A stretch of DNA of 64,000 bases from Campylobacter concisus (GTDB lineage: Bacteria; Campylobacterota; Campylobacteria; Campylobacterales; Campylobacteraceae), in NCBI GenBank assembly GCA_002092835.1, contig LVWL01000020.1:339269-403268 (forward strand), in the 5' to 3' direction. Both the position numbers and the translations under genes were made by a program. The stretch's first letter is position 1. Each line of letters opens with the position of its first letter. Shown piece by piece: positions 6,292-60,734 of this stretch. The notes under the pieces are model-generated. The model was not told the origin of the DNA and made no database searches. It saw only the letters and a list, made by a program, of their open reading frames with translations.

Positions 6292-7113
6292 ATGATACAA
6301 ACTTGCCTATTTCCAGCGGCTGGATATGGAACGAGGTTTTTGCCAGCTACAAAATCGCTCCCAAAAGAGATGTTGCCAATACTTACAAAACCGCTCATTC
6401 ACTACGGCGTTGATGAGGCACTTGAGGCTGGCATGGATAATATGGCCTTTGTCACAGGACGCGGGAAAAGGGCGCTTGAGGACTATTTTGACATCAGCTA
6501 CGAGCTAGAAAAAGAGATCGCAGGTAGCTCAAAAGAGTCGCTGCTAAGCGAAGTTAGAAATTTAATGAGCTCATGCACATTTTCATTTACTAGGCAAAAT
6601 GCTATGAAAGGCCTTGGACATGCCATTTATACGGGCAAAACGCTAGTTCGAGATGAAGCATTTGGGGTCATTTTGGCAGATGATCTATGCATAAATGAAA
6701 ATGGCGAGGGTGTGCTTTCACAGATGGTTAAAATTTATGAAAAGTATCGCTGCAGCGTAGTTGCAGTGATGGAGGTGCCAAAAGAGCAGACCAAGTCTTA
6801 CGGCGTCGTAAGCGGTAGGTTTATAGAAGATGATCTCATAATGGTCGATGATATGGTTGAAAAGCCTGATCCTGCCGAGGCTCCGACAAATTTAGCGATA
6901 ATCGGGCGCTACATCCTAACGCCAGATATTTTTAATATCTTAGAGCGAACAAAGCCAGGTAAAAACGGCGAAATCCAGATCACAGACGCTCTAAAAACGC
7001 AGGCAAAAGATGGCATGGTGCTAGCTTATAAATTTAAAGGCAAGAGATTTGATTGCGGCAGCATCGATGGCTTTGTCGAGGCTACAAATTTCTTTTACGA
7101 GCGCAGTAAATGA
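6292..7113 (+). CDS. galU: UTP--glucose-1-phosphate uridylyltransferase
   Basis: 273 aa, typical length. Makes UDP-glucose for surface glycans. The nucleotidyltransferase start AAGYGTRFLPATKSLPKEM is textbook GalU, followed by LADDLCI for metal and nucleotide binding and VEKPDPAEAPTNLAIIGRY. The stop overlaps the pgi start by four bases (ATGA), so galU and pgi are translationally coupled in a sugar-phosphate operon. Confidence 0.95.
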   Translation: MIQTCLFPAAGYGTRFLPATKSLPKEMLPILTKPLIHYGVDEALEAGMDNMAFVTGRGKRALEDYFDISYELEKEIAGSSKESLLSEVRNLMSSCTFSFTRQNAMKGLGHAIYTGKTLVRDEAFGVILADDLCINENGEGVLSQMVKIYEKYRCSVVAVMEVPKEQTKSYGVVSGRFIEDDLIMVDDMVEKPDPAEAPTNLAIIGRYILTPDIFNILERTKPGKNGEIQITDALKTQAKDGMVLAYKFKGKRFDCGSIDGFVEATNFFYERSK

Positions 7114-8330
7114 TAGAGACTTCATTTAAATTTAACTTTGCAAGCAGCGAAGTCATCGACTCCTATGCTAAACGCATAAACGACGAGTACGAAAGCGGTG
7201 AGATAGGCTACTATCACCTGCCAGCTCTTGGGCAAAATTTACTTGGCGAGATCGAGGAGTATGAAAAGGGGCTAGCTCATATCAAAAATGTCGTGCTAGT
7301 TGGCATCGGCGGCAGTAGTCTTGGCGTAAAGGCGTTAAAATCGATGCTTGATGGCACAAAGGGGATAAAAAGAGAGCTATTATTTTTAGACAATGTCGAT
7401 CCTTGCAGCTACAAAAGCACTCTTGATGGGGTGAAATTTGACGAGACACTTTTTATAATAAGCTCAAAATCAGGCAATACGATCGAGACGATCACTATTT
7501 TTAAGTGCTTGCTTGATGACTTTAAACCTCAAAATTTAGGCAAAAATTTCCTCATCATCACAGATCCTGGCACAAATTTAGAAAATTTCGCCAAAGAAAA
7601 TGGCATTAAATTTTTCAATATCCCAAAAAACGTTGGCGGGAGATTTAGCGTGCTAAGTGCGATAGGCCTTGTGCCTCTTGGTATCTGTGGATATGATATA
7701 AAGGCACTACTGGAGGGCGCGCTTGCTTGCAAGAAGCAATACATCGAGCAAAAAGATAGCTCCATAGTCGCAAAAGCCTACCACTACGCTACTAGCAGAA
7801 ATGCCAGCATAAATGTCATTTTTAGCTATTGCGATAGATTTTTTGAATTTAACGACTGGTACGTGCAGCTTTGGGCGGAGAGTCTTGGCAAAAAAAGAGG
7901 CTACAAAAGAGTTGGTCTTACGCCAGTTGGACTTGTTGGTAGCCGCGATCAGCACAGCTTTTTGCAGCTTATCATGGATGGCGTAAAAGATAAGAGTGTG
8001 ACGTTTATAAAGATAAAAGATCACTCGAGCGACAAGACTATCCCAAATTTAAGCCTAAAAGGGCTTGAGGAGTGCGATTTTGTAGCAGGACTAAGCCTAA
8101 ATGAGCTTATAAATTTGCAGTGCGACGCGACTGCTATGGCGCTGGTGCAAGAGGGCATAAGTGTCGATACGATCACACTTGAGAGGCTTGATGAGTTTCA
8201 CGCTGGCTGGCTCATTTTTTACTATGAGCTGCTAACCTCGGCAACTGGCATCATGCTAGGCATCAACACCTATGATCAGCCAGGCGTTGAGATAGGAAAA
8301 CGTATCCTAAAAACCATGCTTTTAAAGTAA
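7110..8330 (+). CDS. pgi: Glucose-6-phosphate isomerase
   Basis: 406 aa, the short form seen in epsilonproteobacteria (the E. coli enzyme is about 550). Two SIS domains are visible: VGIGGSSLGVKAL for sugar-phosphate binding, SSKSGNTIET, and NVGGRFSVLSAIGLVPLG. The catalytic region is WAESLGKK with DQHSFLQL. It interconverts glucose-6-P and fructose-6-P. In Campylobacter lacking phosphofructokinase this serves gluconeogenesis and glycan precursor supply, which fits its coupling to galU. Confidence 0.95.
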   Translation: MIETSFKFNFASSEVIDSYAKRINDEYESGEIGYYHLPALGQNLLGEIEEYEKGLAHIKNVVLVGIGGSSLGVKALKSMLDGTKGIKRELLFLDNVDPCSYKSTLDGVKFDETLFIISSKSGNTIETITIFKCLLDDFKPQNLGKNFLIITDPGTNLENFAKENGIKFFNIPKNVGGRFSVLSAIGLVPLGICGYDIKALLEGALACKKQYIEQKDSSIVAKAYHYATSRNASINVIFSYCDRFFEFNDWYVQLWAESLGKKRGYKRVGLTPVGLVGSRDQHSFLQLIMDGVKDKSVTFIKIKDHSSDKTIPNLSLKGLEECDFVAGLSLNELINLQCDATAMALVQEGISVDTITLERLDEFHAGWLIFYYELLTSATGIMLGINTYDQPGVEIGKRILKTMLLK

Positions 8331-39147: not shown

Positions 39148-42100
39148 ATGGCTATTGCCATACGTGAATATTTGGGCGATGAAAAGATAGCACAATTAGA
39201 AAGCATGGGCTTTTTGCCAAGCTTGATCACAGATATGGCTAAACGTCAGTATGCTGCTGATAAGCAAGCCAAAAGAAAGGAACTTTCAGATGTTGGCTTG
39301 GATGGAAAACTAGTTCAAAGTGTAATGCGTGGAGATATCAATGAGGAAGAGGCTAGAAATGCACAAAAATTTGAAGATTTTGGCTCAAAAAGACATGGCT
39401 GGGGTCTAGGTGCTGCTAAGACACTCACAGGTATTGCCAATACTGTTGAGCGTGTAGGTGATTTTGTAAATCCATTTTATGAAGGTAAACATGACGAAAA
39501 TGGAAATTATACCTATCAAAATAGCATAGAACAAGCTCTGCGCCCTAAGATACAAAATGCCCAAAAGTTGCGAGATGATTATGAAAAGGCAACTGGCGAG
39601 ACGTCATGGGGTAGCCGTTTAGCCGAAATAGGCACGGAGATGGTTGGCGATCCTGTAAATTTTATAGGTGGAGCTGGACTACTTAGCAAAGGCAGCAAGC
39701 TAGCTCAGTTTGGCAAAAAGACCTTATTTTTCGCAGGTACTGGTGCAGCAAGCGGTGGTGTAATGGCTCTTGGTGAAGGTAAAAACGATGAAGAGACATT
39801 GAAAAATATAGGCTACGGTGTAGCCGGTGGTTTTGTTTTAGGACACGCGATAGATCAAGGCATCCAAGGTATAAGTAAGCTCATAACAAAGCGTCAAGCA
39901 AGTAGGGCGGCAAATGAAGCTGATGCAATAGACAATGCTCAAAATAGCGAGTTTTTAGATGGCGTAAATAGTGCCAGTGGAGATAGTGTGGGCGCTGAGT
40001 TAAAAGAGGCTCAGACAATGACTGCTAGGGATTTTGCCACAAAAGAGGCTGGGCTTGATGAAGTTACAGCTAAAAAAGTAGTAAAAGAAGCTATGCAAGG
40101 CAAAGAAAAAAGCGATTGGACGGACGCAGACACTTATGCAGATATAGCTAAATTTAAAAACTTTGAGATCCAAAGAGACTATGCTAAAGCTTATAGTGAA
40201 AGGATACAAACCGCACAAGCTAGTATAAACAACGCCAGGGAGCAATCGGCCATAAGATATGCAGATACGCAAAAAGCTATTAATGAATATCAAAAACAAG
40301 GTATGTCACCAAGTGCTGCACGAGAGCTAATCAATGCTAAATTTAAGCCAAGTGCAGATGAAATAAACTACACTAGGGCATATAATGACGGAGTTGATGT
40401 TGATGCTAGACTTGCAGGACAGGGGATATTTTATGCACTTGAAAAAGATATTGCAACACAGACCTATACTCCGGAAATTTACGCTGTAAGATTAAAACAA
40501 AGAGGATTTAGTGATGAGAGTGTGCAGGCTTTTACGCAGGCATACGTAAGCAAGGATATAAATATCGCTAAAGACTATGCAAATTCAAAAGTAGCTGATG
40601 CGTATGAGAATAAAATTCAAAGAGAAGTAGCTAACGAGATCAGAGATAGAGATGAAGTAGGGGGCGGTTTTGTCAATGAAGAAGCAAAAAATAACGGATT
40701 ATCAGATAGCGTTTCTGATATCGGCGATAATGCAAGCCGAACAGGAGAACGACAAGCAAGCGATGAGCAAATACTACGCCAAGGCGGACGCAATACTTCA
40801 AGCGCTAGCCAGACAAAGCGGACAGCCCAGAGCGATGAGCAAATGGAGCAGCGACCAGCCTTTAAAACAGATGGCGATACTGATGCCACAGCTGCAAGCA
40901 AGCAAATGGTGGAAGAACAAGGAAGCGGCGATAATGAGATAAGAGGGTATGTAGGGCAAACGCAAGAAGAGTATAAAAAGCTTGCAAATGAATATGATAT
41001 TGATAAATTCTTAAGCGACAGAGAAAATGTATTATCTAAAGATGCAAGGCATGGAAAAAGCAGGATAACTGACAGAACCATTGAAAGCAACGACGGAGTT
41101 GGCGGCTGGGAGTATAAGCTAACTCCAGCAGGTTATGAAAAAAATTATAAGGCTGATTTTTTAACTACAAAAGCTGACGTCGCAAAGATAAGAGCTGGCA
41201 AGATGGATGAGGCTACTTTTAATAAACTAAAATCTGATCTTGAAAGCAGTGATGCACTAGGCTATGAGTATAAAAAAAGGAGTGAATATGCTGATATGGA
41301 AGACTTTGAGCGAGAATTTGGAAGCTTATATAATCCAAAAGGTGGCAAAAATATCAATGCTAACTCTCATATAGCAAGTGGTTTGGTTGCCGGCACGCTA
41401 AATTCTATCGATGAAGATGGAAATTTTAATCCAAATAGATTTGCAGCTGGATTTTTAGCAGGGTTAGCCAGTAGTAAAGCAGTTGCAATAACTACAAGAA
41501 AAATGACACCACAGCTTTATAATAAGATATTAGGCGTAGCTAAAAAGATGCCACAAATGGCAAAAGGTAATCCTAAACTTCTAGGCAAGCTTTATGCAAA
41601 CGGCAAGGACGTAAGCTTAAATTCTTTTGCTGGAGAAAAGGCGATCACGGCAAACGTCGGCAAACTAGATCAAGCTAAAGCAATGCTAGAAAAGGGCGCG
41701 GACGAGGTAGAAACTTGGCAAAAGACGGGGTGGTTTAAGGATAAAGACGGTGCTTGGAAATTTGAGATAGGAGACAGCAAGGCAAGGCTAAATCCAAATT
41801 TTAAAAGTGGCGGAAAGCTAGGTGAGCTACTAGAGCATGAAGAGCTATTTAAAGCATATCCGGAGCTAGAGGATATTAGCGTTAAAAAGATAAGCAATGA
41901 TATACCAAAAGAGGCTTCTTTAAGCACAAAAGACGTGGCACAAAGAGAGAAGCGGGGGATATATAATGTAGCTTATAATGATAAGAGTGCTACTTTGGTA
42001 AGGCGTGATCTAGAAAAGATAGATGATGCTTTGATGTTTGAAAAGGGTTCTAGCAAAAAAGGCGGAGCGATACATATAAAAAAACATTTAGAACCAGAGG

Positions 42101-42369
42101 CACAAGGTGCAATAACACAAAGTGAGCTTTTAAATATCGGTAAAAATATAAGAGAGTATCTGCAAAAATATAAGGAGCCTTTTATAGACGAACATGGCGG
42201 TAGAATCTATGAATGGGCTAATAAAGGAGGTGTGAAATTTAGAGTTGTGGTATATGAAAAACAGATGGGATCTCCGCATCCCATCCAGAGACGATTATAT
42301 CCTTCTACTCTAATAGAAATCTTAAAAAACCTATGGAGTTTCGCAATCCAGAGGTTAAATATGACGTAA
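39148..42369 (+). CDS. Polyvalent/internal virion protein, N-terminal part (frameshifted gene)
   Basis: 1073 aa before an early stop. Early region has glycine-rich hydrophobic helices (GGAGLLSKG, GTGAASGGVMALGEG) suited to membrane insertion; a long Gln/Ala/Asp-rich helical middle follows; around 910 is LLEHEELFKAYPELEDISVK, a polyvalent-protein-associated domain; the last ~80 residues (GGAIHIKKHLEPEAQG, RVVVYEK) resemble the barnase/EndoU/ColicinE5-type nuclease family found in phage polyvalent proteins. The frame fails at about 42264, and the next frame continues DGISASHPETIISFYSNRNL into the second part. One extra A in the A-run at 42257-42261 would restore one protein of ~1,725 aa. Confidence 0.75.
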   Translation: MAIAIREYLGDEKIAQLESMGFLPSLITDMAKRQYAADKQAKRKELSDVGLDGKLVQSVMRGDINEEEARNAQKFEDFGSKRHGWGLGAAKTLTGIANTVERVGDFVNPFYEGKHDENGNYTYQNSIEQALRPKIQNAQKLRDDYEKATGETSWGSRLAEIGTEMVGDPVNFIGGAGLLSKGSKLAQFGKKTLFFAGTGAASGGVMALGEGKNDEETLKNIGYGVAGGFVLGHAIDQGIQGISKLITKRQASRAANEADAIDNAQNSEFLDGVNSASGDSVGAELKEAQTMTARDFATKEAGLDEVTAKKVVKEAMQGKEKSDWTDADTYADIAKFKNFEIQRDYAKAYSERIQTAQASINNAREQSAIRYADTQKAINEYQKQGMSPSAARELINAKFKPSADEINYTRAYNDGVDVDARLAGQGIFYALEKDIATQTYTPEIYAVRLKQRGFSDESVQAFTQAYVSKDINIAKDYANSKVADAYENKIQREVANEIRDRDEVGGGFVNEEAKNNGLSDSVSDIGDNASRTGERQASDEQILRQGGRNTSSASQTKRTAQSDEQMEQRPAFKTDGDTDATAASKQMVEEQGSGDNEIRGYVGQTQEEYKKLANEYDIDKFLSDRENVLSKDARHGKSRITDRTIESNDGVGGWEYKLTPAGYEKNYKADFLTTKADVAKIRAGKMDEATFNKLKSDLESSDALGYEYKKRSEYADMEDFEREFGSLYNPKGGKNINANSHIASGLVAGTLNSIDEDGNFNPNRFAAGFLAGLASSKAVAITTRKMTPQLYNKILGVAKKMPQMAKGNPKLLGKLYANGKDVSLNSFAGEKAITANVGKLDQAKAMLEKGADEVETWQKTGWFKDKDGAWKFEIGDSKARLNPNFKSGGKLGELLEHEELFKAYPELEDISVKKISNDIPKEASLSTKDVAQREKRGIYNVAYNDKSATLVRRDLEKIDDALMFEKGSSKKGGAIHIKKHLEPEAQGAITQSELLNIGKNIREYLQKYKEPFIDEHGGRIYEWANKGGVKFRVVVYEKQMGSPHPIQRRLYPSTLIEILKNLWSFAIQRLNMT

Positions 42370-54314: not shown

Positions 54315-55456
54315 CTATCTAGCCAGTTTAAATTGTTTGATGCTAGCTTTTTGAATTTGCTTAAATATCATCTTTATAATGTTGACACTCATCGCATTTC
54401 CTGCTTGCTTGTAGGTTTGCGTATCGCTCACTACGATTTTGAAGCTCTCAGGAAATCCTTGCAAACGTAGACACTCTCTAGGGGTTAGCTTGCGTATGCG
54501 CGCGCTTTTTAGCAGATTGTTTTGCTCAAAGCTGCTAGAGCTTATCGTAGGGCAAACTGCAAACTCGCCACCCTTATTAAAGCCTCGTGCGCGTTGTAAA
54601 ATTTTCGGCTCTTGATTGCCACCTTGTGCCGTATATATAGTAGGAGCTACCCCGTCGACATCATAAACTCGTTTTAGTATGTCGTTGCCTTTTATGTCGA
54701 GCTTGCCAACTACTTTTATGAAGTTATCCGTGCGACGACTTCCTGCGGTAGTCATTATGCAATTCCCTACATCGCTTAAAGACATTGGGGCAAAGCTGCC
54801 CTGAAAGTTGTTTTCTTTTTTCTTAAGGCATGCGATCATCTTATCGCCCAAAAAGTATTTTTCATCTACTTCGCAATCTAGCATATCGCCCAAATTTAGC
54901 TCTAGTGCCTGCTTTGGTGCGTTAAAAAAGGCGTGATATTCGTCTACGTTCAAAAACCCCACGATATACAATCGCTCTCTATTTTGCGGGATGCCGTAGT
55001 CTTTTGTGTTTAAAACTTCGGCGTGGCAGTGATAACCCAGCCTCGCAAGGTGTCCATAAATCTTTGATAGCTTTTGCCGCCGTTGATAGACAAAAAGCCT
55101 TTGACGTTTTCATAGATGAATACGCTAGGGCAAGCCTCGCTAACGACGCGGTAAAATTGCCATATCAGATTGCCTCTCTCGCCGTCCTCGCCCGCGCGAT
55201 GCCCTGCGATTGAGAAGTCTTGGCAAGGGCTACCGCCGATCAAAATATCTATTTGCCCGGCGTAAGCTTTGGCGTCAAGATCGCAAACATCCTCATAAAA
55301 AGCTAGCGGGGCTTCGTGATTGGCTAGATAGCTTTGACGAGCGAATTTGTTTATCTCGCAGGCAAGTATCGTTTTAGCCTCGCCGAATACTTCGCGAGCT
55401 GCAAACTCGGGCGCGCCGATGCCTGAAAAAAGAGTAGCAAGTGATATTTTATGCAT
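54315..55456 (-). pseudogene. C5 cytosine DNA methyltransferase, split by frameshift
   Basis: The N-terminal part (to about 55040) has SLATLFSGIGAPEFAAREVF, the catalytic PC motif GGSPCQDFSIAGHRAG and VFIYENVKGFL. It breaks in GWVITATPKF, while the next frame continues GLGYHCHAEVLNTKDYGIP and MYIVGFLNVDEYHAFF. The C-terminal part holds KLTPRECLRLQGFPESF and AGNAMSVNIIK. One missing base near 55039-55042 explains both. Start ATG at 55456 overlaps the upstream stop. A solitary phage methyltransferase like this would mask sites from host restriction. Confidence 0.85.
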
Positions 55457-55841
55457 TATGCACATCCGAAAAGAGACTATTTTCTTTTATAAATTTCTTT
55501 AAAATTTCTACGACTTCATGTGCAAAATCAGGGTTTTTAAAACGAAAACGTCTAAAATAAAAATAAATTGCAGCTTTGTTTTTACCAGTATGCTTTGAAA
55601 CGTAGTCTGCGATCTCGCTTTCACTTGATGCACATTCAAGTGCTTTATAATACATATCTGCCACTTCATCAAAATGTGGACAGAGGTAGTTTTGCTTAAC
55701 GAAAAGGGCGTGCTCATATATCTTAAAACGATCATGCCTGTCATGCTTGCGGTCAAGATAGCTTAAATTTTGTAAATTTTTCTTGCACGTTTCAAGTATG
55801 CTAGCGTGATCTACGCGTATATACTCCCTCATCGTTGTCAT
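55449..55841 (-). CDS. Hypothetical early phage protein
   Basis: 130 aa, helical and charged (IYEHALFVKQNYLCPHFDEV; GKNKAAIYFYFRRFRFKNPD). No domain recognised. Its start lies four bases from the stop of the small membrane gene, and its end overlaps the methyltransferase start, so it is in the leftward operon. Confidence 0.6.
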   Translation of the reverse strand: MTTMREYIRVDHASILETCKKNLQNLSYLDRKHDRHDRFKIYEHALFVKQNYLCPHFDEVADMYYKALECASSESEIADYVSKHTGKNKAAIYFYFRRFRFKNPDFAHEVVEILKKFIKENSLFSDVHNA

Positions 55842-55844
55842 AAG

Positions 55845-55955
55845 CTAGCTCCTTTTTTTAAAAAACAAAGCCAACATGCCAAGCGTTAACATGGCACCTC
55901 CGACAAAAGCACAAACAACTACTGCAATAACGCTTAAGGCAAATTGCTCAGTCAT
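55845..55955 (-). CDS. Small membrane protein
   Basis: 36 aa: MTEQFALSVIAVVVCAFVGG then AMLTLGMLALFFKKRS. Almost all hydrophobic with basic end, one or two spans. AAGGATAG upstream. Overlaps the HTH gene by 4 bases (ATGA), consistent with coupling. Confidence 0.5.
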   Translation of the reverse strand: MTEQFALSVIAVVVCAFVGGAMLTLGMLALFFKKRS

Positions 55956-56212
55956 GATCTATCCTTTTTGGTAAAAATTTCGCCTTCGCCAAAAAATAGC
56001 CACTGGATCGAAAAGTCATACTTGTCAGCAAGTAGGATGATCCATGATAGTGGCGGTCTGTTCTCTTTTATGACATTCCAGTAAGCGACTCTAGTGACGT
56101 TAAGCACTTGTTTGGCAAAGTCATTTTTGCCGTAGTCAAGCAGTCTTCTAGCCGCATCTATACGCTGCGTAATGGCTACAATATCAAGCGTTTGGTGCTG
56201 CTTTTTATCCAT
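55952..56212 (-). CDS. CI/Cro-type helix-turn-helix regulator
   Basis: 86 aa. FAKQVLNVTRVAYWNVIKEN is a helix-turn-helix and SIQWLFFGEGEIF is the tail found in phage CI-type repressors (usually SxDWLLxGEGE). First leftward gene opposite the 56344 regulator, so a Cro-like role is likely. GATTTTCGATGG gives the start. Confidence 0.78.
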   Translation of the reverse strand: MDKKQHQTLDIVAITQRIDAARRLLDYGKNDFAKQVLNVTRVAYWNVIKENRPPLSWIILLADKYDFSIQWLFFGEGEIFTKKDRS

Positions 56213-56343
56213 CGAAAATCCCTTTTTACGCTATAATGTAAATACATTTTAACGCTTTGGTTAAATATTTGAGTTAATTATATACTCAATTGAAATAAAA
56301 GTCAATAGCATATTACTCAAAAATTTCTAAAAGGAGTATAAAT
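56213..56343. promoter_or_regulatory. Divergent operator/promoter region between the two regulators
   Basis: 131 bases between oppositely oriented regulators. TTGAGT (56269-56274) and ACTCAA (56284-56289) form an inverted pair with a 9-base spacer; a third ACTCAA is at 56315-56320. An imperfect palindrome AATGTAAATACATT spans 56236-56249, next to TATAAT (56232-56237). Good candidate for the lysis/lysogeny switch. Confidence 0.6.
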
Positions 56344-56730
56344 ATGGAAAATTTAGAAGCTATTTTGGCGAGAATGCGCGCTGTGCTCGGAGTAAAAACA
56401 GATAAGCAGATGTGTGAAATTTTAGAAATTCCATACAATACTATTACGACTTGGAAAGATAGGGACAAAATTCCAAAAGGAAGATTTTTGGAAATTGCCG
56501 CAAAGCTAAATGTAACGCCCGAATATCTAGAGAGTGGAATAAATATATCAGGTGGCAACAATCAAATCGGCAATTTAAATACACAAAACAATGGTTCAAA
56601 TGAAAAGGATAGAGGCGAGATATGGAGCGAGTTTGTAAAGCTCTTTGATGAATACGGCAGCAATGCAATGCTTAAAAAATTTATCGAGCGTCTAGAGGAA
56701 GAAAAAGAGAAATTTACTAAAGGAGAGTAA
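56344..56730 (+). CDS. Phage repressor with HTH and RHIM/BASS-like motif
   Basis: 128 aa. HTH of the CI-repressor type at about 18-58 (TDKQMCEILEIPYNTITTWK; PKGRFLEIAAKLNVTPEYLE). Residues 70-83 are GGNNQIGNLNTQNN, followed by a helical tail (EIWSEFVKLFDEYG). The same motif ends the next two proteins. Divergent from the leftward early operon across the operator region; likely the prophage repressor. Confidence 0.75.
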   Translation: MENLEAILARMRAVLGVKTDKQMCEILEIPYNTITTWKDRDKIPKGRFLEIAAKLNVTPEYLESGINISGGNNQIGNLNTQNNGSNEKDRGEIWSEFVKLFDEYGSNAMLKKFIERLEEEKEKFTKGE

Positions 56731-56732
56731 AA

Positions 56733-57110
56733 ATGCTTGAGCAGGATAAATACTGGACTAAAAATATCGGTCTTAGTGTAAATGATAACGAAAATGAAAT
56801 AAGTGTCTTTGAGGTAAAGGAGCTGATGCTTTTTAGAGAAGATGCTAAGAGTAACGCAGGGTATGGAGATGACAAAATGTTGGCTGCTCAAGAATTTCTA
56901 GAATTTTTGGATATAGAATATCATAAAATTTTAGATGCTGATTTTGTTTTTAAAGATAAAGATGATCCTGTATGGCTATGGGTAAAATTTTCTCAAGAAG
57001 TTGGAAGAAAAAAGAGAGGCGATACAAAAATATATAACATACAAATCCACGGTGGAAACAATCAAATAGGCGACGGAAATACTCAACATAATAATGGAAA
57101 TAAAGCGTGA
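56733..57110 (+). CDS. Unknown protein with C-terminal GGNNQIG motif
   Basis: 125 aa. The first ~95 residues are an unknown acidic/helical region (ISVFEVKELMLFREDAKSNA; KDDPVWLWVKFSQEVGRKKR). Residues 107-120, GGNNQIGDGNTQHN, repeat the motif of the preceding repressor, preceded by TKIYNIQIH. Ends within four bases of the next gene. Function unknown; the shared motif suggests a partner of its neighbours. Confidence 0.7.
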   Translation: MLEQDKYWTKNIGLSVNDNENEISVFEVKELMLFREDAKSNAGYGDDKMLAAQEFLEFLDIEYHKILDADFVFKDKDDPVWLWVKFSQEVGRKKRGDTKIYNIQIHGGNNQIGDGNTQHNNGNKA

Positions 57111-57436
57111 TAGATGAATTTTTAAAGGCATTTTTTGATGCGATAGGTGGCTTTGTAAGTTATTGTCTCGCTTTTATTTTTAGTGGCATAGAAAAATTTA
57201 TCATGTATATATTGTATTATCCAGATCCGCAAATCTTGTATTATAGATTAGCCGGATTTATGATGCTTTTTATGATAACAATTTCTTTGTTTTCATTTTA
57301 TATGAACAAAAGAAGGCGTCGATTAAAAAAGGATAAGCCACTTAAATTTTATAATAATAAAAGACACACTATTATAATCAATGGTGGAAATAATCAAATC
57401 GGCAACGATAATACGCAGAATAATTACAAGAGATAG
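57107..57436 (+). CDS. Membrane protein with C-terminal GGNNQIG motif
   Basis: 109 aa, GTG start at 57107 overlapping the previous stop. Two hydrophobic regions (AIGGFVSYCLAFIFSGIEKF; LAGFMMLFMITISLFSFYM), a basic stretch (NKRRRRLKKDKP) and residues 93-106 GGNNQIGNDNTQNN at the C-terminus, after HTIIIN. A membrane protein with a terminal amyloid-like motif is the organisation of pore-forming effectors in amyloid-signalling pairs; inference. Confidence 0.7.
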   Translation: MIDEFLKAFFDAIGGFVSYCLAFIFSGIEKFIMYILYYPDPQILYYRLAGFMMLFMITISLFSFYMNKRRRRLKKDKPLKFYNNKRHTIIINGGNNQIGNDNTQNNYKR

Positions 57437-57441
57437 AGATA

Positions 57442-58080
57442 ATGAAAGAAGTGGTTTTACAAAATTTCGGTTTTATTTTACTTGCTTTTTCTGTGTTGCT
57501 ATTTATTTTAATATATCTAGTTTTAATTTTTATTGGTTATAAACCAAGAGAGACAATAAAAACAATATTATCCGCCATATCCTATATTATACTTTATTTG
57601 CTAATTGAAGCCATTCTTTGCCGTATTATTTTTGGCAAAGAATATGAGTATTATGTGGGATATTATTTATTTTATTTATTTGCAGCATATATAGACTATA
57701 GACCTCGTGACTTAATACGAAGTAGCTGCATAACTATCATTTTATCTATTATACTAGCTATTGGTGGCGACGGGAAAGAATCTTTTTATGAGTTTTTGAT
57801 GAATTTTACAGTAGGTTTTATATCAATAAATTTTACCTCTATAGTTTTTCTATCATTGCAAAAATTGATAAATCTTACTAAAGAACAATGGATGCAACAT
57901 AAAATTACAAATAACATAAATGCAAAAACTATATCTATTGACAATGAAAATGATGTTGCAATAGATAACTCTCGTGTTCTTAATGCAGAAATCAATACTT
58001 TAGTAGATATTGGGAATATAATAGAAAGCGGCATTCAAAATAAAATTCCTGATGATTTTACAAAAAATGAAAAAATATAA
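57442..58080 (+). CDS. Multi-span membrane protein
   Basis: 212 aa with four to five spans (NFGFILLAFSVLLFILIYLV; AISYIILYLLIEAILCRIIF; SCITIILSIILAIGG; GFISINFTSIVFLS). The soluble C-terminus is Asn/Asp/Ile-rich (NNINAKTISIDNENDVAIDN), somewhat like the polar repeats before the motif in the previous proteins but without QIG. Six bases after the preceding gene, so same transcript. Confidence 0.65.
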   Translation: MKEVVLQNFGFILLAFSVLLFILIYLVLIFIGYKPRETIKTILSAISYIILYLLIEAILCRIIFGKEYEYYVGYYLFYLFAAYIDYRPRDLIRSSCITIILSIILAIGGDGKESFYEFLMNFTVGFISINFTSIVFLSLQKLINLTKEQWMQHKITNNINAKTISIDNENDVAIDNSRVLNAEINTLVDIGNIIESGIQNKIPDDFTKNEKI

Positions 58081-58180: not shown

Positions 58181-59353
58181 ATGGGCAATGAAAAACAATC
58201 TAATATAGATGTTATTCAAAAAAGACTTATTTCTGTTTTTAAAGATGAAACAAAAATATCCGCACTGTCTGGATTATTGGATATGATAGAAAACAACTCT
58301 TTTGCTACAGCAGTCTCTAATATTGAGAATTTTTATACTAACTATGGTGATTTTGCTACAAAAAAAGAAGAAATAGACGAAATTTTGGATGACGTAAAAG
58401 ACTCCCAAGAAAAAATAAATAATGCTTATAGCGAAATTTACGATATAGACGATAGGAGCATAGCACTAAAAGACTCGAGTAGTATTTTAAATAATTTAAG
58501 GCAAGCCAATAATGATGCTGTAAAAATAAGAAAAACATATATAAATTTTTATGGACAAAAAGACAGCGAAGGCAACCAGACACAAGGTATTGTTTCTAAA
58601 CTCGAGTCTGCTTGTAGCGAAATAGAAGAATCGGAAGATAAAATAAATGAGCTAAAAGATTTTTATGACGAGGTATTTAATGGGATTACGGATGATAATG
58701 ATCCAAAAAACAATAAAAAGTCATGGGTAGACTTTTTGGATGAAAAAAAAGAATATGTAAATAATATGATTGAACAGGGGGAAAATGACTTTAAAAATTT
58801 AAAGAATAAGATAAATTCATTGCTTCCTGGCGCAACTTCCGCTGGGTTAGCTAGGGCATATATGAGACAAAGAAGAATAACGGAAAAGAAAGTAGAAAAG
58901 TGGAATCGTATTTTTAATTGGGCTATAGTAACATTTGCTGTTGCTTTCTTGTTTTATTTTATTTTAGCTATATATTTAAACACTTTTGGTTTTGTTGATT
59001 TTTTTAAAAGTTTACCATTGTGGGTATTTAGTGGATTTTTTATTTATTACTCAACACAACAGATTTCTGAGTACAAGAAAACAGCCGATGAATATAGGCA
59101 CAAAGAAGCCTTAGCGTCATCTTATATTGGCTTTGAGCGTCTTATATTGGAATCTGGAAATATAGAATTGAGAGATAAGCTTTTAGAAATAGCTACTGAT
59201 GCTATCGGTGTTAATCCCAGTGATAGAATAAATTCTAGCGGGCAAATTCCAAGTTTAACATTTTTAGAAAAAATTATAGATTTACTTCCATCTGAAAGTC
59301 TGAGGAAACTTTATGACAAAATAGGTAATTCTCTAAATATCGCAAAAAAATAA
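58181..59353 (+). CDS. Coiled-coil membrane protein of the lysogeny module
   Basis: 390 aa. N-terminal ~220 residues are helical coiled coil (FATKKEEIDEILDDVKDSQE; SACSEIEESEDKINELKDFY), then LLPGATSAGLARAYMRQR, two closely spaced membrane spans at about 245-300 (AIVTFAVAFLFYFILAIYLN; LPLWVFSGFFIYYST), and a helical C-terminus. Similar coiled-coil/LLPGATSAGLA proteins are found near defence and mobile genes; I do not know the function. AAAAGGAGAG ribosome site. Confidence 0.7.
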   Translation: MGNEKQSNIDVIQKRLISVFKDETKISALSGLLDMIENNSFATAVSNIENFYTNYGDFATKKEEIDEILDDVKDSQEKINNAYSEIYDIDDRSIALKDSSSILNNLRQANNDAVKIRKTYINFYGQKDSEGNQTQGIVSKLESACSEIEESEDKINELKDFYDEVFNGITDDNDPKNNKKSWVDFLDEKKEYVNNMIEQGENDFKNLKNKINSLLPGATSAGLARAYMRQRRITEKKVEKWNRIFNWAIVTFAVAFLFYFILAIYLNTFGFVDFFKSLPLWVFSGFFIYYSTQQISEYKKTADEYRHKEALASSYIGFERLILESGNIELRDKLLEIATDAIGVNPSDRINSSGQIPSLTFLEKIIDLLPSESLRKLYDKIGNSLNIAKK

Positions 59354-59534: not shown

Positions 59535-60734
59535 TTATTTTACCAACACATCCAAATAATCCGCCCACCATTGCATTAACATCTTCATATCTGCTAAATT
59601 TTGAGCTCTATTGTAAGCTTCTCTTACTTTATCCTTGTCCTTGTGTGCAAGGCATCGTTCGATGATGTCAGCATGACAACCATGTTCATTTCTTTTTTCG
59701 TTGGCCATAGTTGAAAACATCGCACGAAAGCCATGAGAAACGATCTCGTCTTTGCTATATCCCATGCGTCTTAGTGCTGTATTTAATGTATTTTCACTCA
59801 TTGGGCGGCTTTTGGATAGTGTGCTGGGAAAAAGATACCCTTCGGTATTTCTACAAATTTTTGCATAGTCTTTTAATAAATTTACGACTTGATCAGCTAG
59901 CGGTAGTCTAAAAGCCTCTTTCATTTTCATTTTATCTGCTTTAATCGTCCAAATTTTTGTGGACAGATCAAACTCATCCCACTGGGCAGCCCTAACATTA
60001 AATGGACGCATAGCGGTGTAGATCGCAAGCTTTAGTGCAACTTTTGTTTTTATGTCACCATTATATCCGTCTACTGACACAAGTAGCGTACGTATCTCAT
60101 TTTCATCTGTGATAGTAGGGAAATTTTTAGGCTTTGCGATTTTAAAGGCGTATTTGAAATTTATATCGGCCACGACGTTGTGAGCAACTATCTCATAGGT
60201 GACAGCGTATCTAAAAATTTGATTTAGCAAGATAAATACACGCTTGATGGTTTCTAAATTCCCAGCTTTTTCTATGGTCTTTAATACATCTATTATTTCT
60301 ACTGCTTTTATATTGTCCAATGGTCGATCGCCTAAATAAGGTGCAACGTGCTTGTTAAAAATCAAATTTTGTTTTTTTAAGTAGTTTGGAGTTATGTTTT
60401 CGGATTTTATATCTAGCCATTTTGTAGCGATATCGTTTAGTGTTGTTTTGCTACTCTTTTTACTTATTAGCGGATCAATACCGTCTAATATTTGAGCGGC
60501 CAGCTCCCTGCGTTTTTCTCTGGCGGCTGAGAGGCTAAGATCAGGATAATTACCCAGGGCCATTCGGCGTGTTTTTAATGTAAGAGGACTTTTATATTCA
60601 AGTGCAAAAAATTTACGACCGCCTGGCTCGATGAAAATAAATAAATTTTGTCCGTCAGATTTTTTATAAACCTTATCTTTGGGTTTTAAAGCCCTTATGG
60701 CTGTGTCCGTCAAAGGAGGGTTAATTTTTGGCAT
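59535..60734 (-). CDS. int: Tyrosine-recombinase integrase
   Basis: 399 aa. N-terminal DUF4102-type domain (LTDTAIRALKPKDKVYKKSD; FALEYKSPLTLKTRRMALGN). SAM-like core-binding region about 90-190. Catalytic residues: Arg in AIYTAMRPFNVRA, HGFRAMFSTMANE (H-x-x-R), LAHKDKDKVREAYNRA with the terminal tyrosine nucleophile. P4-type integrases favour tRNA or tmRNA 3' ends, consistent with insertion at ssrA. It is 231 bases from the right att core. Confidence 0.95.
   Translation of the reverse strand: MPKINPPLTDTAIRALKPKDKVYKKSDGQNLFIFIEPGGRKFFALEYKSPLTLKTRRMALGNYPDLSLSAAREKRRELAAQILDGIDPLISKKSSKTTLNDIATKWLDIKSENITPNYLKKQNLIFNKHVAPYLGDRPLDNIKAVEIIDVLKTIEKAGNLETIKRVFILLNQIFRYAVTYEIVAHNVVADINFKYAFKIAKPKNFPTITDENEIRTLLVSVDGYNGDIKTKVALKLAIYTAMRPFNVRAAQWDEFDLSTKIWTIKADKMKMKEAFRLPLADQVVNLLKDYAKICRNTEGYLFPSTLSKSRPMSENTLNTALRRMGYSKDEIVSHGFRAMFSTMANEKRNEHGCHADIIERCLAHKDKDKVREAYNRAQNLADMKMLMQWWADYLDVLVK

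Follow-up and report, generated by a model that had tools for sequence, protein, structure and literature searches.

Three consecutive genes of a Campylobacter concisus prophage encode a predicted CI-type repressor, a small protein and a small predicted membrane protein, and these products have the block GGNNQIGxxNTQ in common. Among related repressors of the Campylobacterota, blocks of other sequence are in many cases matched in the product of the next gene. On balance, these sequence comparisons favour a role of the block as a recognition tag, probably amyloid-like, that would join the predicted repressor to the partners encoded next to it and set prophage silence. The tag most likely belongs to a lysogeny switch and not to a death effector. 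The window, by which we mean the whole stretch of 64,000 nucleotides analysed, comes from a host genome of 1.9 Mb in 23 contigs, and its relevant features are listed in Table 1.

Table 1. Features of the prophage region, numbered from the first letter of the window
Feature	Position	Strand	Basis or remark
Small HTH protein, Cro-like position, divergent	55952..56212	-	First gene of the opposite, early-type operon
Palindrome TTGAGT-N9-ACTCAA (56269-56289)	56266..56305	.	Overlaps the minus-strand sigma70-like promoter
Sigma70-like promoter	56305-56277	-	TTGACT-17-TATAAT
CI-type repressor	56344..56730	+	PF07022, E 5e-9, 36.7 bits against a cut-off of 22
Block copy 1, GGNNQIGNLNTQ	56551..56586	+	Residues 70-81 of the 56344-56730 product
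Small protein without hydrophobic segment, block in C-terminal tail	56733..57110	+	AlphaFold2
Block copy 2, GGNNQIGDGNTQ	57051..57086	+	Residues 107-118 of the 56733-57110 product
Small predicted membrane protein, block at C-terminus	57107..57436	+	Hydrophobic peaks
Block copy 3, GGNNQIGNDNTQ	57383..57418	+	Residues 93-104 of the 57107-57436 product
Predicted membrane protein, four hydrophobic peaks, no block	57442..58080	+	
Operon neighbour, weak coiled-coil matches, one hydrophobic segment, no block	58181..59353	+	
Tyrosine integrase of the element	59535..60734	-	PF00589 E 2e-22, phrog_1 E 4e-67

The divergent pair of HTH genes, together with the integrase gene and a primase gene that lies farther out on the minus side of the pair, is the layout of an immunity region. 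The minus-strand HTH protein matched a transcriptional repressor family of PHROGs (phrog_4, E 6e-8) and fell marginally below the PF07022 cut-off (21.9 bits against 22). The 56733 gene starts two bases after the repressor gene, and the start of the 57107 gene overlaps the 56733 gene end by 4 bases. The 57442 gene is not part of the core, because the genomes G029 and G057 have other genes there. Evidence for the sigma70-like promoter is weak, since 17 promoter-like sites were found in the region against 19.8 expected. The overlapping palindrome is a possible operator; as a conserved operator it was rejected, its exact form being absent from relatives and present solely in loci of the window's genome.

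The first-pass annotation had described one block in three consecutive prophage proteins, repeated in the DNA, with the remainder of each protein different. Coordinates and sequence confirmed the blocks, starting at residues 70, 107 and 93, and the DNA copies at 56551, 57051 and 57383. A 20-base pattern with up to three mismatches matched the window exactly three times against 0.59 expected, and three matches were reached in 0 of 100 shuffles. The whole genome contained no other mismatch-free match and one extra match with two mismatches. A chance origin of the repeat was ruled out by these counts together with the partner shuffles described below. In BLASTP, similarity between the 56733 and 57107 products was limited to 27 residues around the block; between the repressor and the 56733 product the block carried the match, with a weak gapped extension upstream. 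The description of otherwise different proteins therefore holds, that weak extension included. Above the Pfam cut-offs only the repressor was matched among the three proteins (Phage_CI_repr), and NCBIfam gave nothing informative.

AlphaFold2 models place the block in disordered parts of both modelled proteins. The repressor has HTH helices within residues 4-64, a disordered linker that holds the block (pLDDT below 50 for residues 68-88) and two C-terminal helices at 90-126. The 56733 product has a strand-helix-strand-strand core (residues 21-90, mean pLDDT 82-96 per ten-residue block) and carries the block in a disordered C-terminal tail (residues 97-125, pLDDT below 50). A PDB fold search with this core returned no significant match (best E 0.085). 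The 57107 product has hydrophobic peaks at residues 8-26 and 43-61 followed by a basic stretch. No S24 peptidase domain was matched in the 128-residue repressor of the window (Pfam, E up to 1), and no ORF6C domain in the 56733 or 57107 product (Pfam, PHROGs).

The annotation had proposed a survey of related prophages, and the motif was found in relatives of each protein. All 12 database relatives of the membrane protein, the window's own included, kept GGNNQIG unchanged, and the core was present in 51 of 59 relatives of the 56733 product. The other eight comprised one with a changed core, one ending within the block, one 49-residue fragment, four without the block and one with another block. 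The block was absent from the 56733 homologues P0187-P0189 and from that of G057. Among the best 120 of 126 repressor relatives, 74 had the core and, of the other 46, two had a point change in it; most of the remaining core-less relatives had a different block, of the type ISNNTNSVVVNGSNNGSIVNG, in the same place.

To survey repressors of this kind more widely, 40 distinct candidates were read from 144 stretches, many of them overlapping. Six candidates were dropped where the pattern had missed the C-terminal region, and two of these were restored by hand. A length filter of 100-160 residues left 31 repressors; 29 had a non-paralogous downstream gene and formed 23 clusters at 70% identity. In 19 aligned repressors the HTH and the block were variable and the C-terminal region was conserved. 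Across the family, 99 of 153 genomes gave matches to the repressor profile, and many of these matches covered the HTH part only. A match was scored between the repressor linker and the first non-paralogous downstream gene, at z of at least 3; a related HTH protein of 207 residues in L069 was excluded as partner by hand. Thirteen of the 23 clusters had such a match, so the pattern of matched neighbours recurs with other block types. In 12 of the 13, no more than 9 of 1,000 shuffles of the linker matched equally well (20 of 1,000 in L082). Among second downstream genes, z 3 was reached by the window's own only and by none of the 13 others.

When partners were shuffled among loci, 0 of 100,000 pairings were as good as the real one, and 1 of 100,000 was when the window's cluster was left out. 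Shuffling within the NIxIxG block class gave 1,969 of 100,000 pairings as good, and shuffling with the block-bearing ends removed gave 12,530. The own partner ranked first in just 3 of the 23 clusters, because one block class is common. In ten clusters, including those of the L059 repressor and both L060 repressors, no gene reached z 3; L080 and L136 looked alike by eye though below this threshold, and the other eight showed no match. The block may act alone in some clusters.

Several loci held additional genes. In L069 (4772-5395), L077 (4712-5305) and L072 (4214-4744), all on the minus strand, the first repressor is followed by another HTH protein. Its block is almost that of the first in L069 and L077, and in L072 none is seen. 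A minus-strand 81-residue frame in L141 and the proteins P0094 and P0131 are repressor-like and lack an HTH, but each retains the C-terminal region and either a block or a stretch resembling one; these could be truncations or modulators. Behind the pair in L081, a further gene (6967-7521) begins with another Asn-rich stretch (NITANNNSNAAGRDINHINIF).

The matched partners were of five kinds. The first is the 57107 family. The second kind, phrog_22297 for the two tested, has about 100 residues, with a hydrophobic segment at its N-terminus and a C-terminal sequence of the INVDGSQNIVIAGxxNxI type. It was found in 7 of 153 genomes, in six of them behind such a repressor (in L069 after the second HTH gene); the seventh match was weak and lay inside another frame. 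This kind was also found in 10 IMG/VR loci and in the phages CJIE4-1, CJIE4-2 and PC10, which were the only 3 of 50,697 annotated phage records with a phrog_22297-type partner. Gene order was read in CJIE4-1 and PC10. The cargo behind the repressor-partner pair varies between elements; in CJIE4-1 (L144, 5245-8698) the operon behind the repressor and membrane partner has an exonuclease-like gene and a KAP P-loop NTPase.

The third kind has about 200 residues, no hydrophobic segment and an N-terminal block. Its family was found in 5 of 153 genomes, always adjoining a repressor of this small-repressor family, with the frame in G144 interrupted by stops. The L074 partner matched ORF6C (E 6e-7, 29.9 bits against 22) and the anti-repressor family phrog_2127 (E 4.5e-10). 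The ORF6C score was just under the cut-off of 22 bits for the L076 partner (20.8) and well under it for the L084 partner (14.7), and ORF6C was not matched in the L080 and L066 partners. The fourth kind is the 56733 domain, which also occurs in C. pinnipediorum (L065, genome G018; 39% identity over 75 residues, E 9e-17). The L065 protein has NSVIVNGNNSGNITN at its N-terminus and the neighbouring repressor has NSVIVNGSNSGNIVN. We take L065 to be a natural tag swap, with the same domain bearing another block at the other end, where it matches its own repressor. The fifth kind is a 210-residue protein in G036 (L066), which was found in that genome only, besides one weak match with stops in G090, and not in phages.

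In the 50,697 annotated phage records, tblastn matched neither the 56733 product (E up to 1) nor the window's repressor (E up to 1e-3), and the three-gene stretch had no blastn match. A block-code scan of IMG/VR matched 16 stretches, with more than one copy only in L020, a C. concisus-type prophage. The other 15 were rejected as single copies whose frames were by eye unlike any of these proteins. One locus came from scanning genome_contigs with the profile of the membrane partner, and a sample of 298 genomes of the order contributed one weak hit beyond the family.

Running the repressor profile on 397 genomes of the class, among them those of the family, yielded further repressors. Of 16 loci fetched from other families, L162, L168 and L169 had clear matches, with new blocks and with partners that have hydrophobic segments. 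In L168, QNGANSTQIKTQNN is paired with QNGPNSTQIRTQNN at z 9.6; the values for L162 and L169 were 8.7 and 5.0. The pairs in L162 (2884-4020) and L168 (3822-4783) adjoin genes labelled by eye as ParA- or Rep-like, not clear phage genes, so the pattern may reach integrated plasmid-like elements. The L168 partner had no match in plasmids. The L169 repressor has an S24 domain (E 3e-14), and matched blocks are thus not confined to repressors that lack one.

As a mechanism, we propose that the blocks of partner and repressor would bind like-with-like by cross-beta stacking. Repression would be relieved once the repressor is captured, either at the membrane or by an anti-repressor. A membrane partner could hold or drain repressor at the membrane, and elements sharing a cell would be insulated from one another by their distinct block sequences. 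Since the window's repressor has no S24 domain, the usual RecA-triggered self-cleavage is not expected of it, and capture by a partner would be an alternative. That the joining of partner and repressor sets activity is suggested by this lack of S24, by the anti-repressor-like partners and by a CJIE4 module that replaces an S24-type repressor. In C. jejuni 00-0949 and 00-1597, CJIE4 ORF6 to ORF10 were all detected by iTRAQ in plate growth, ORF6 being a CI-type repressor of 127 residues (PMC3995785). The ORF6-10 cassette occupies the position that a CJE1439-1442 cassette, with an S24-type repressor, has in other CJIE4 prophages (PMC3995785). The CJIE4 gene order is the same as in the repressor-partner loci, and from the order in KF751793 we identify ORF6 and ORF7 as the block-bearing genes.

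A more specific form of this proposal is a prion-like switch, in which an amyloid tag would let the repressor co-polymerise with the product of an adjacent gene, a membrane protein or an anti-repressor, allowing RecA-free induction with element-specific tags. We regard this form as tentative and rather doubtful. The S24 domain of the L169 repressor argues against a strict tie of matched blocks to non-cleavable repressors and weakens the RecA-independent part. Two further points count against capture: a co-transcribed anti-repressor and repressor would need a further trigger, and a separate Roi antirepressor is encoded in all five CJIE4 prophages (PMC3995785).

The induction route of prophages with non-cleavable repressors is unsettled in many phages, and tag pairing would be an unrecognised phage means of keeping or ending dormancy. 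The matched blocks would provide a testable, sequence-readable code for the pairing of partner and repressor. Should they be amyloid-like, templated assembly as a mode of signalling would no longer be confined to immune receptors but would also operate in a phage decision circuit, and perhaps in plasmid-like elements too. A literature search by title and abstract start, in which subscription journals were sparsely covered, found no description of a motif shared by a phage repressor and its neighbour.

Parts of the proposed switch resemble known regulators. Like the ORF6C/KilAC anti-repressors, the soluble L074 partner, and weakly those of L076 and L084, match ORF6C or anti-repressor profiles; unlike them, the partners here have an N-terminal block and directly follow the repressor gene, overlapping its end. 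The operon position beside the repressor is that of lambda rexA-rexB and 434 hex. To our knowledge, no block is shared by either of these and its repressor. In phage 434, Hex guards the repressor from RecA-stimulated cleavage (PMC3564112). SOS-independent TF-smORF modules likewise use small phage proteins that inactivate cI without RecA-driven cleavage (Silpe et al. 2023, PMC10432266). There, however, a transcription factor encoded nearby switches on the small gene separately, and the part of that account consulted describes no tag common to both proteins, whereas here the partner gene follows the repressor and the block is common to both.

An unlikely alternative, closest to the first-pass annotation, is abortive infection or superinfection exclusion, with a lethal or depolarising membrane protein that the repressor or the 56733 product would seed through the block. 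A repressor-operon location recalls lambda rexA-rexB. The block is C-terminal on the 57107 protein, as on the effectors of NLR-Bell pairs (PMC8086366), and the KAP P-loop NTPase encoded in the same CJIE4 operon belongs to a class linked by its authors to phage immunity (PMC3995785). The annotated lethality found no backing, however: the 57107 product matched no toxin, pore or defence family, its sole match, at E 0.32, being to a holin PHROG. Growing lysogens make the corresponding CJIE4 protein (PMC3995785), and some matched partners are soluble and anti-repressor-like. Of the annotated reading, the sharing of the block by neighbouring proteins is supported, but the relatives point to control of the repressor rather than to death.

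The annotation had also likened the Q-(I/V)-G-x-x-N core to RHIM, fungal PP and BASS3 amyloid motifs. Against the Frankia BASS3 peptide of PMC8086366, the 56733 product scored 40, with 0 of 500 shuffled peptides as good, and the repressor and 57107 product had 12 and 14 of 500; the counts for proteins from the other block classes ranged from 31 to 478 of 500. The three block proteins did not resemble the BASS3-like archaeal peptide of that paper (173 to 291 of 500), and the BASS3 likeness thus holds for one peptide and fails for the other. The BASS3 peptide of PMC8086366 bound Congo red and has the same Q-(I/V)-G-x-x-N core, with a hydrophobic residue where Asn precedes Q in the window's block class. 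Blocks of the other classes are Asn/Gly-rich with alternating hydrophobics and are only loosely BASS3-like. Pfam RHIM was not listed at E up to 1 and was found nowhere in the genome, with a positive control that matched in 0 of 14 genomes.

As in BASS, NLR-Bell, RHIM and fungal PP systems, a short block visible by local alignment is common to the products of adjacent genes, and as in BASS there are several block families that match within loci. The partners differ from NLR-Bell pairs in being a prophage repressor and a small membrane, anti-repressor-like or small soluble protein. No NLR domain (NACHT/NB-ARC) was found by Pfam in the five window operon proteins and ten scanned proteins of relatives. 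Neither the 57107 nor the 56733 product had a Bell match above the Pfam cut-off, in a library that may lack a Bell profile. The system is therefore not NLR-Bell amyloid signalling by definition, though it would work alike.

Less probable again is that the block is a self-association element only, for example in repressor oligomerisation, and that the likeness of neighbours stems from recombination or shared ancestry. This would account for the 10 of 23 clusters whose repressors lack a matched partner and for the second HTH proteins of L069 and L077, whose block is almost that of the first repressor, to which they are partly related. It does not sit well with shuffled pairings being worse than real ones, or with a tag that switches ends on the 56733 domain yet matches its own repressor. 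Codons were compared in the window, G022, G029 and G057. In the first three, all 9 of 9 gene pairs differed only synonymously in the seven-codon core, so the likeness does not stem from very recent copying of DNA; the single G057 pair had three synonymous differences and one non-synonymous. Over 12 codons, gene pairs showed 2 to 6 non-synonymous changes, outside the core except in the G057 pair. These substitutions indicate that the block core is kept as protein. Between the window and G057, the membrane protein was identical at 14 of 16 block positions and at 22 of 89 elsewhere. No such contrast was seen for the repressor and 56733 product, whose 17-residue block and remaining residues were conserved about equally (13/17 against 77/110 in one comparison, 15/17 against 103/108 in another). 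Three similar DNA copies, 500 and 332 bases apart, speak for a repeat that acts as DNA, as operator or recombination sites inside genes. Such a role is very improbable and largely refuted, since the copies are in frame with synonymous core differences in the three closest genomes and other loci have matching peptides of very different sequence.

Two further genes of the window were noted. A DNA methyltransferase-like gene, so labelled by eye (54315-55465, minus strand), is split into two frames of 218 and 151 aa, and its counterpart in the related prophage L005 is one open frame of 385 aa. A 1,073-residue frame at 39148-42369 has four stretches that match phrog_13543, a family of unknown function.
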